Shown in pieces: positions 21,401-32,836 of a stretch of DNA of 64,000 nt. The translations under genes were made by a program, and so were the position numbers. The notes below the pieces were generated by a model. That model had not been told where the DNA came from. It worked only from the letters and a program-made list of their open reading frames with translations, and did not search any database. Origin of the DNA: Pseudoxanthobacter soli DSM 19599 (GTDB lineage: Bacteria > Pseudomonadota > Alphaproteobacteria > Rhizobiales > Segnochrobactraceae); contig NZ_FRXO01000003.1 of assembly GCF_900148505.1 (NCBI RefSeq), positions 434,001 through 498,000 on the forward strand, given 5' to 3'. Numbering within the stretch: the stretch's first letter is position 1; each line of letters begins with the position of its first letter.

Positions 21401-21416
21401 TGTTTCACGTGAAACA
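21401..21416. other. parS site 1
   Basis: TGTTTCACGTGAAACA, a perfect 16-bp palindrome identical to the widely conserved bacterial parS consensus bound by chromosomal ParB. It lies 67 bp upstream of the mnmG start codon and about 3.6 kb from parB. Confidence 0.96.
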
Positions 21417-21446: not shown

Positions 21447-21462
21447 TGTTTCACGTGAAACA
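21447..21462. other. parS site 2
   Basis: A second perfect TGTTTCACGTGAAACA, 46 bp centre-to-centre from site 1. Together they form a double ParB-loading site in the mnmG-mnmE spacer. Confidence 0.96.
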
Positions 21463-28840: not shown

Positions 28841-29923
28841 TCAGGCCCGCCGAACGCGGGCGAGCATCCGCTCGACGTGCTCGATCGGGGTCTCCGGCAG
28901 GATGCCATGGCCGAGATTGAACACGAACGGCCCGCCCGAGAATGCCGACAGGATCGCCTCGACGCCCTCGTCCAGGGCCCGGCCGCCCGCGACGAGGCGC
29001 AGCGGATCGAGATTTCCCTGAATGGTCGCCACGGCCTGCAACGCCCTGCCCCGCTCGAGCGACACCGACCAGTCTAGCCCGACGGCATCGACGCCGGTTT
29101 GCTGCACGAACCCCTCGAGCCGCGTGCCGGCGCCGCGCGGAAAGCCGATGATGCGGGCGCCGGGAACCGCGGACCGCACGCGCTGCACGATCTCCCGCAT
29201 CGGCTCGGTCGTCCAGCGCGCGAAGCCGTCGGTGTCGAGCGGCCCGGCCCAGCTGTCGAAAACCTGCACCGCGTCCGCGCCGGCCGCGAACTGCGCGACG
29301 AGATGGGACGAGACCGCCTCGACGAGAACGTCGATCAGGCGGCGGAAGCCGTCGGGGTCACGATAGGCGGCGAGCCGGGCGAACGCCTGATCCGGCGAGC
29401 CACGCCCCGCCACCATATAGGTCGCCAGCGTCCAGGGAGCCCCGGCAAAGCCGATCAGGGCCGTCTCCGGGGGGAGATCCGCCCTCACCCGCGAAATCGC
29501 TTCGTAGACCGGTTCAAGGTGCCCGGCGACGCGACCGAGATCGAGACCGCCGACGGCATCGAGCGGCAGCGGATCGAGCCGAGGTCCCTCGCCCTCCATG
29601 AAGGCGACCGGCTGGCCGAGACCATCGGGAATGACGAGGATGTCGGAAAAGATGATGGCCGCATCGAAGCCGAACCGGCGGATCGGCTGCAACGTGGCCT
29701 CTGTGGCGAGATCCGGCCGGTAGCAGAAATCGAGGAACGATCGGGCCTCGCTGCGGATCGCCCGGTATTCCGGGAGATAGCGCCCGGCCTGCCGCATCAT
29801 CCAGACGGGGGGAATGTCCGTCCTTTCGCCGGCGAGCGCCGCCATGAAGCGGGAGGAAGCCGCTCGCGATGCGACCTTCTCCTGGCCCCTTTCCGGTTCC
29901 CCGGCTTTTCCACCCGTCTCCAT
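28841..29923 (-). CDS. hemE: Uroporphyrinogen decarboxylase
   Basis: Converts uroporphyrinogen III to coproporphyrinogen III in heme synthesis. The 360-aa product has the family motifs [17 protein letters not shown], the catalytic-Asp segment [44 protein letters not shown] and [15 protein letters not shown]. The N-terminus is extended by about 20 polar residues. The start codon lies only 8 nt from the first of three GANTC sites at the edge of the replication origin, so its promoter and the origin overlap, as in Caulobacter. Confidence 0.97.
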
Positions 29924-29930
29924 AAAGAGA

Positions 29931-29959
29931 GAATCCTTGAATCAAGGGATTGTTGATTC
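29931..29959. promoter_or_regulatory. Cluster of three GANTC (CcrM) methylation sites
   Basis: GAATC at 29931-29935, GAATC at 29939-29943 and GATTC at 29955-29959. GANTC is the target of the cell-cycle-regulated methyltransferase CcrM in alphaproteobacteria. The cluster covers the hemE leader and the IHF site. Confidence 0.75.
29940..29952 (+). promoter_or_regulatory. IHF-binding consensus at the origin
   Basis: AATCAAGGGATTG matches WATCAANNNNTTR at every fixed position. IHF bends DNA at bacterial origins. The site shares bases with the second GANTC motif. Confidence 0.65.
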
Positions 29960-29989
29960 TGTTTGGAGGTGGATTACCGGGATTATCGA

Positions 29990-29998
29990 TCATCCACA
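29990..29998 (+). promoter_or_regulatory. DnaA-like box
   Basis: TCATCCACA differs at one position from TTATCCACA and is close to the Caulobacter G-box TGATCCACA. Weaker relatives are TTTTCCACG (30020-30028) and, on the minus strand, CGATCCACA (30149-30157). Confidence 0.6.
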
Positions 29999-30111
29999 AT
30001 CGGACGCGGCGTCACGGGCTTTTCCACGGCGCAGGCGGAGATCCGGGCTTTTCGTGGAGCAGCCTTTGGAAATCCGGATTATGGTTCCTTTTCAAGGTGT
30101 TGCCATATTCC

Positions 30112-30126
30112 TTAACAAAAGGTTAA
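30112..30126 (+). promoter_or_regulatory. CtrA box at the origin
   Basis: TTAACAAAAGGTTAA is a perfect TTAA-N7-TTAA match to the CtrA consensus. In Caulobacter, phosphorylated CtrA bound to such boxes blocks replication initiation. It lies in the AT-richest part of the spacer. Confidence 0.75.
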
Positions 30127-30383
30127 ACAGGCATTGCCGTGGATGACGTGTGGATCGTCCGGGACCGCGCAAATCGTCCACGGAGTTCGGGGGGCGTGGA
30201 CGGATCCGTCCGTCGGCAGCTGATCTGTTGATTGATCGGGACGGAATTGCATGATGAACGGCCGATCCGTTTCGCCGGCCGGTACCGTCCACACATCTTA
30301 ACAGGGCTGGGGACAACGCGCGGGGCCGGCCTGCCGAAGCCGGCGGTTTCCGTGAGGTCGCAGGCCGGAAAGGCGCAGACAGG

Positions 30384-31223
30384 GTGCCGACGTTCTTTCA
30401 TCTCCATCTCGTGTCGGATTCGACGGGCGAGACGCTTTCCACCGTCGCCCGCGCGGCCATCGTCCGTTACGACGACGTGGAGGCGATCGAGCACGTCCAT
30501 CCGCTGATCCGCTCCGACCGCCAGCTCGACAAAGTGCTTTCGGCCATCGAACAGGCGCCGGGAATGGTGCTGTTCACCCTCGTGAACGAGAAGATGGCCG
30601 AGCGCGTCGAACGGTTCTGCCAGGAACTCGGGCTTCCTTCCGCCAACGTGCTCGACCCTGTCGTGCGGCTGATGCAGTCCTATCTGAACCTGCCGGTCGC
30701 CCCGCGTGTTGGCGGGCAGCACCAGCTCGACACCGACTATTTCCGCCGCATCGACGCGCTGAACTACGTGCTGATGCACGACGACGGCGTGCTGCCGGAT
30801 GACATCGAGCAGGCCGAGGTGATCCTCGTCGGCGTCAGCCGCACCTCCAAGACGCCGACTTGCATCTATCTCGCCAACCGCGGTGTGAAGGCGATCAACA
30901 TTCCGATCGTGCCGGGCGTGCCGCTGCCGCGGCGGTTGTTCGAGGCTGAAAACCCATTGGTCGTCGCCCTCGTGGCCAGCCCCGAGCGCATCGCCCAGAT
31001 CCGCGAGCACCGCCTGCTGACGCTCAACGCCAAGCCCGACAATGCGGCCTATGTCGACCGCCGCGCCATCGCGGAGGAGATCGCGCTGACCCGGCGCATC
31101 TGCGCGGAACACCGCTGGCCCATCATCGACGTCACGCGTCGCTCGATCGAGGAAACGGCCGCCGCCATCATGGCGCTCGCCAAGCAGCGCCGGGAACAGT
31201 TGCGCGAGCAGGGCATCGGCTGA
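30384..31223 (+). CDS. PPSR-type regulatory protein (DUF299, bifunctional kinase/pyrophosphorylase)
   Basis: DUF299 proteins phosphorylate and dephosphorylate a partner dikinase, either pyruvate phosphate dikinase or PEP synthetase, using ADP and inorganic phosphate. The 279-aa product starts with GTG at 30384 (CAGACAGG upstream). It has FHLHLVSDSTGETLSTVARA, the P-loop-like VGVSRTSKTPTCIYLANRG (about 150-168), NIPIVPGVPLP and a C-terminal IDVTRRSIEETAAAI. Length is usual. Which dikinase it controls cannot be told here. It is the first gene rightwards from the origin. Confidence 0.94.
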   Translation: MPTFFHLHLVSDSTGETLSTVARAAIVRYDDVEAIEHVHPLIRSDRQLDKVLSAIEQAPGMVLFTLVNEKMAERVERFCQELGLPSANVLDPVVRLMQSYLNLPVAPRVGGQHQLDTDYFRRIDALNYVLMHDDGVLPDDIEQAEVILVGVSRTSKTPTCIYLANRGVKAINIPIVPGVPLPRRLFEAENPLVVALVASPERIAQIREHRLLTLNAKPDNAAYVDRRAIAEEIALTRRICAEHRWPIIDVTRRSIEETAAAIMALAKQRREQLREQGIG

Positions 31224-31916: not shown

Positions 31917-32836
31917 GCGACGATCAGCACGGCATCGCTGCCGCCACGCCCGTCGCCGGCCCCCGCGCGGCCGTGATCGGATGGCCAGTGTCCCATTCCC
32001 GGTCTCCTCTCATTCACGGGCACTGGCTCCAGCGCTACGGCCTGCCGGGAAGCTACGGCCGGCTGGCGCTGGAACCGGAGCGGGCGGATGCGTTCTTCGC
32101 CGACTTCGCCGCCTCCGGACTTTCCGGTGCGAACGTCACCGTGCCTCACAAGGAGGCAGCAGCCCGCGCCTGTGCCGAGCTCGATCCGATGGCGGCGACG
32201 CTCGGCGCGGCCAATACGCTGTGGCTGGAGGACGGCCGGCTCCACGGCGCCAACACCGACATCGTCGGCTTCCTCGCCAATCTCGACCAGGAGGCGTCTG
32301 GCTGGGACCGCAATCCCGGGCCGGCGGTGGTGATCGGGGCGGGCGGCGCGGCGCGCGCGGTGGTGCACGGGCTCGCGAGCCGGGGCTTCGCGCCGGTCCA
32401 CGTCGTCAACCGCACGCTGGAGCGGGCTGAGGCAGTCGCCACCCTCGCCCGCGCGCCGGGTGGCACCATCGTCGGCCGTGCCCACGGCTTTGCCGAGCTG
32501 CCGGGCCTGCTGCGCACTGCGGGGGTCATCGTCAACACGACCTCGCTCGGCATGGCCGGCTCGCCGCCGCTCGACATCGACCTCGCTCCGGTACCGGAAG
32601 GCACGCTCGTCACCGATATCGTCTATGTCCCGCTCGAAACGCCGTTCCTCGCCGCCGCTCGGCGGCGCGGACTGCCGACGGTCGACGGCCTCGGGATGTT
32701 GCTGCACCAGGCCGTTCCCGGCTTCGAGCGCTGGTTCGGCCGCAGGCCGGCCGTGGATGCGGACTTGCGGGCGGTCGTCCTCGAAACTCTCCCGCCGGAA
32801 GCGTTCGTGAAGGCGGAGGAGACGGCACACCGATGA
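31913..32836 (+). CDS. aroE: Shikimate dehydrogenase
   Basis: NADP-dependent reduction of 3-dehydroshikimate to shikimate in aromatic amino-acid synthesis. The 307-aa product has VIGWPVSHSRSPLIHGHWL (substrate serines), NVTVPHKEAAARAC (catalytic Lys), GAANTLWLEDGRLHGANTDIVGF (Asn/Asp pair), the nucleotide fold VIGAGGAARAVVHGL, VVNRTLERA and NTTSLGM. The N-terminus has about 18 extra Ala/Pro-rich residues. It overlaps maf and coaE by 4 nt on either side. Confidence 0.96.
   Translation: MSDDQHGIAAATPVAGPRAAVIGWPVSHSRSPLIHGHWLQRYGLPGSYGRLALEPERADAFFADFAASGLSGANVTVPHKEAAARACAELDPMAATLGAANTLWLEDGRLHGANTDIVGFLANLDQEASGWDRNPGPAVVIGAGGAARAVVHGLASRGFAPVHVVNRTLERAEAVATLARAPGGTIVGRAHGFAELPGLLRTAGVIVNTTSLGMAGSPPLDIDLAPVPEGTLVTDIVYVPLETPFLAAARRRGLPTVDGLGMLLHQAVPGFERWFGRRPAVDADLRAVVLETLPPEAFVKAEETAHR

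Follow-up and report, generated by a model that had tools for sequence, protein, structure and literature searches.

A CtrA-type box in the predicted chromosomal origin of Pseudoxanthobacter soli and its clade-structured recurrence in Rhizobiales origins

The window, the 64 kb stretch of Pseudoxanthobacter soli DNA analysed here, contains the genes hemE and ppsR on opposite strands, separated by an intergenic spacer that is predicted to be the chromosomal replication origin (Table 1). Genes for HemE and a COG1806 protein also border the origins of Caulobacter and Rickettsia (PMC1914354). The spacer is 42% AT compared with ~32% in the surrounding genome, and has the elements of a hemE-type oriC, with several weak DnaA-like boxes and one IHF match, recognized by their consensus sequences. 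Near its center is a CtrA-type box, at a distance of 188 bp from the start of hemE and 258 bp from that of ppsR.

Table 1. Features of the predicted origin and its surroundings, in window coordinates.
Feature	Coordinates	Strand	Basis
Two perfect parS sites, TGTTTCACGTGAAACA	21401-21416, 21447-21462		Exact match; supports origin-proximal location
hemE, uroporphyrinogen decarboxylase	28841-29923	-	Pfam PF01208, E 1e-110
Intergenic spacer hemE/ppsR, predicted chromosomal replication origin	29924-30383		Synteny with Caulobacter Cori boundary genes
Three clustered GANTC (CcrM) sites, at 29931, 29939 and 29955	29931-29959		Sequence scan
Exact IHF consensus match, AATCAAGGGATTG (WATCAANNNNTTR)	29940-29952	+	Consensus scan
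DnaA-box-like TCATCCACA, 1 mismatch	29990-29998	+	Consensus scan
DnaA-box-like TTTTCCACG, 2 mismatches	30020-30028	+	Consensus scan
AT-richest 60-mer of the window, containing the CtrA box; candidate DNA-unwinding stretch (putative role)	30070-30129		Composition scan
CtrA box TTAA-N7-TTAA, palindromic form TTAAC-AAAAG-GTTAA, TTAACAAAAGGTTAA	30112-30126		Exact match
DnaA-box-like TCATCCACG, 2 mismatches, 11 bp past the CtrA box	30138-30146	-	Consensus scan
DnaA-box-like CGATCCACA, 2 mismatches to TTATCCACA, 1 to TGATCCACA	30149-30157	-	Consensus scans
TTAAC half-site	30298-30302	+	Read from sequence, without further support
ppsR/DUF299 (COG1806), PEP synthetase kinase/pyrophosphorylase	30384-31223	+	Pfam PF03618, E 2e-88

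A sequence-only reading had placed the chromosomal origin in this spacer and an exact TTAA-N7-TTAA within it. The second point is confirmed by direct sequence match, and the first is borne out by the hemE/spacer/ppsR synteny, the GC skew, the polarity of a KOPS-like motif, and the parS sites. Cumulative GC skew over 315 kb of the contig reaches its minimum at window position 32660, 2.5 kb from the spacer, and the KOPS-like GGGNAGGG switches from a plus:minus ratio of 4:24 on the left of the spacer to 15:5 on the right. The two parS sites are 46 bp apart and ~8.7 kb from the spacer, between genes that we take to be mnmG and mnmE from their translations and from the usual make-up of this gene cluster. 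The dnaA locus was considered as an alternative origin and rejected, as the KOPS-like motifs there are of a single polarity and dnaA does not mark a turning point of the skew.

The box is the sole TTAA-N7-TTAA in the window, and none was found in 100 dinucleotide shuffles. Only ten such sites are present in the 5.16 Mb genome, this one among them, and thus ~0.0009 would be expected per 460 bp spacer. The 60-mer in which it falls is 65% AT, the highest of the entire window. The raised AT content of the spacer would favor a chance or compositional match, but with 0.000-0.001 sites expected by shuffling or genome density we consider this explanation very unlikely.

CtrA is encoded in the genome, as an equivalog scoring 421 bits against NF045991 (cut-off 350), and so are ChpT (PF10090) and GcrA (PF07750). 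CtrA is ~82% identical to Caulobacter CtrA and the recognition-helix region is identical; the NCBIfam equivalog match is independent of that comparison. The receiver domain is ~93% identical by manual count to PDB 4qpj chain C, which is presumably Brucella CtrA.

Genome-wide N7 sites were counted using pattern searches and fetched stretches, and the genes around them were called with a codon-use score. There are 52 TTAA pairs at the 17 spacings from 0 to 16, with ten at spacing 7 and a mean of 2.6 at the others; across the genome, TTAA pairs favor N7. One site is 42 bp upstream of minC, another precedes the predicted start of repA in a repABC operon (L147, G000:C12) by ~110 bp, a third lies between rpsT and dnaA, and two more are upstream of an outer-membrane barrel gene (by 16 bp) and of a porin gene. 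CtrA directly represses minCD in Sinorhizobium meliloti (PMC4433202), and putative CtrA sites are described upstream of repABC operons (PMC9040568). The nine genomic N7 sites outside the predicted origin look like a real CtrA regulon. Methylosinus sporium also belongs to the Rhizobiales. A TTAA-N7-TTAA promoter motif has been reported in this species (PMC12403871).

The location of these further N7 sites at known CtrA target genes, the standing of TTAA-N7-TTAA as the established CtrA consensus, and the Caulobacter-like recognition region all argue against the palindrome being bound by a different factor, such as IHF or another OmpR-type regulator. We regard such binding as most improbable, even though a one-mismatch IHF consensus at 30113 overlaps the box, and TTAAC-N5-GTTAA is a perfect inverted repeat with a geometry common among regulators.

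Two of the genomic sites have noteworthy surroundings. The repABC operon with the N7 site adjoins thiG and a thiamine monophosphate synthase gene. In the rpsT-dnaA interval (L140 2478-2560, G000:C2), a CtrA box, GANTC sites, and DnaA-like motifs form another cluster, ~1.4 kb upstream of dnaA and separated from it by a rhodanese gene.

In total, 52 families of the order were sampled. Sequence upstream of ppsR was taken from 131 genomes of the order, and the 124 (42 families) in which hemE is adjacent were analyzed. An exact TTAA-N7-TTAA is present in 49 of the 124 hemE-ppsR spacers (~40%) and in 18 of the 42 families, whereas each of the other TTAA spacings from 0 to 24 is found in 0-8 genomes (mean 3.1) and in at most six families. 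Dinucleotide shuffling of the 124 spacers gives a mean of 1.7 genomes with N7 and a maximum of six in 200 shuffles, and the reversed motif AATT has no peak at spacing 7 in these spacers. The stricter TTAAC-N5-GTTAA, the form of the P. soli box, is present in 16 genomes (0-2 for the other spacings), and is ~245-fold over genome density in the spacers of the genomes compared, a ratio uncorrected for intergenic composition. Because the excess is specific to one spacing and extends across families, composition is ruled out as its general cause, which also weighs against a chance match in P. soli. Exact boxes are absent from 75 of the 124 origins. In the genomes concerned, one-mismatch N7 sites exceed those at other spacings only about twofold, and weak sites were therefore left out of the counts.

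An extension of the enrichment to other alphaproteobacterial orders is unsupported, with the box in 3 of 43 spacers; each family is represented by a single genome in this sample, which is no argument against Caulobacter itself. In family f36 (L036, L112, L115, and L155, with genomes of 7-9 Mb), hemE is not beside ppsR, and the origin locus is thus rearranged in these genomes.

To allow for the non-independence of sequences within a family, we also report family counts and changes on a tree. Within-family pairs agree on the presence or absence of the box in 151 of 190 cases (shuffled mean 98), and a HemE tree has 18 presence/absence changes, compared with a shuffled mean of 38 and minimum of 31. 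Boxes are found in all sampled members of some families (f35, 5/5; f42, 5/5; f41, 5/5; f5, 4/4; and the P. soli family, 3/3) and in none of others (f24, 0/5; f18, 0/6; f20, 0/6; f2, 0/6). Family f24 is putatively the Rhizobiaceae, as it includes genomes of 6-7 Mb as well as 1.5 Mb, a range also seen in that family.

The box had been described as retained in this origin, with a comparison of the spacer in related genera proposed as a check. In the two nearest genera compared, G001 and G002 of the same family, there is no box at the P. soli position, so that the exact position is not conserved, a point that could be taken in favor of a chance match. Each nonetheless has perfect boxes elsewhere, at the hemE-proximal end of the spacer: measured from ppsR, they are at -398 and -377 in G001 and at -425 in G002, compared with -272 in P. 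soli. Retention thus holds for a perfect box somewhere in the spacer, as seen in all three family members, and not for the individual site; likewise, across the order it is the presence of a CtrA site in the origin that is conserved in relatives (18 of 42 families), rather than its position. Since the position differs in the nearest genera yet both carry perfect boxes, CtrA boxes turn over between genera.

These positions also bear on whether a true CtrA site here acts on transcription, of hemE or of ppsR-maf-aroE-coaE-dnaQ, with an indirect effect or none on replication. CtrA is chiefly a transcription factor, its sites in other species are mostly in promoters (PMC4433202), and the boxes in f29, f21, G001, and G002 are in the hemE-proximal part of the spacer, the expected location of a hemE promoter. 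However, the P. soli box is distant from both gene starts, and the centrally located boxes are spread from -166 to -297 relative to ppsR, whereas an activator would be fixed at -35. The distance from box to gene varies by more than 100 bp, and a simple promoter role is therefore disfavored; we consider a transcriptional role of this kind rather unlikely, though it is the most substantial of the alternatives.

We favor, with some confidence, the interpretation that the box is a genuine CtrA site in the chromosomal origin at which phosphorylated CtrA (CtrA~P) would hold back initiation, with both binding and repression proposed by analogy with Caulobacter. Bound as a dimer to both TTAA halves, alongside the DnaA boxes and AT-rich DNA, CtrA~P would delay opening by DnaA; as in Caulobacter, the block would lift once CtrA is removed on entry into S phase. 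Single sites would turn over between genera, with at least one perfect site kept in the spacer, as in all three members of the family. The earlier proposal of direct CtrA control at this origin is sustained insofar as it concerns a CtrA-type origin site, for which the spacing enrichment, the clade structure, and the encoded CtrA argue, and is weakened in its appeal to retention and to AT-rich placement. The latter is accurate at the P. soli locus, but does not generalize: the flanks of 47 boxes are no richer in AT than random positions, nor are these 47 boxes closer to DnaA-like sites than random positions, and thus no common geometry for blocking DnaA is visible. The P. soli layout, with the box at the edge of AT-rich DNA and so near to DnaA-like sites, is suggestive but is not a general architecture.

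CtrA sites in hemE-type origins are long established in Caulobacter and Rickettsia, and CtrA motifs are already annotated by programs that locate origins (PMC10225481). The P. soli locus resembles Caulobacter crescentus Cori in its hemE/COG1806 flanks, TTAA-N7-TTAA, DnaA boxes, IHF consensus, and CtrA sequence, but Cori has five footprinted CtrA sites whereas here there is one exact box, a predicted site. Multiple CtrA sites spanning the origin in the Caulobacter style are not present in the P. soli spacer, where the exact box is accompanied by a single TTAAC half-site. The Rickettsia prowazekii origin shares the hemE/COG1806 synteny, CtrA-type sites in the spacer, and IHF sites (PMC1914354 and references there), but is very AT-rich with several sites, and the species belongs to a different taxonomic order. 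Hyphomonas neptunium also has CtrA at the origin, with a ChIP-seq peak beside it (PMC7200025); its binding is experimental, and it is a stalked budding bacterium outside this order.

In Sinorhizobium meliloti, which we place in the same order, CtrA depletion raises DNA content, but the chromosomal origin has neither a CtrA motif nor CtrA binding (PMC4433202), and CtrA is reported as not binding the origin in S. meliloti and Brucella abortus (PMC4433202; PMC2877005). The lack of boxes in all five f24 genomes fits the published S. meliloti absence of motif and binding. Work on these two species has led to the view that CtrA in Rhizobiales couples replication to the cell cycle only indirectly; the order-wide pattern of boxes suggests that no more than some of the clades conform to this view. 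Given boxes in ~40% of the spacers and 18 of 42 families, yet in none of the f24 genomes, replication is probably under direct CtrA control in more of the Rhizobiales than the best-studied models imply. The fuller proposal, that origin control by CtrA is widespread in the order and maintained through site turnover, has been lost in the box-less rhizobial models, and splits the order into clades, we judge to be evenly poised between right and wrong. The named box-positive and box-negative clades permit a side-by-side comparison of direct and indirect control. In the literature searched, which included few subscription journals, we encountered no description of CtrA boxes with an order-wide, clade-structured distribution among Rhizobiales origins.

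Other motifs in the 124 spacers are also unevenly distributed. GANTC sites have a density of 10.8 per kb in the hemE-proximal third and 4.9 per kb elsewhere. A CTGTTGAY element, at 30225-30232 in the window, is present in 25 of the 124 spacers and in 13 families, and may be an origin element or else the promoter or leader of ppsR. Most copies are at a near-constant -103 to -118 from the ppsR start, and the P. soli copy is at -159.
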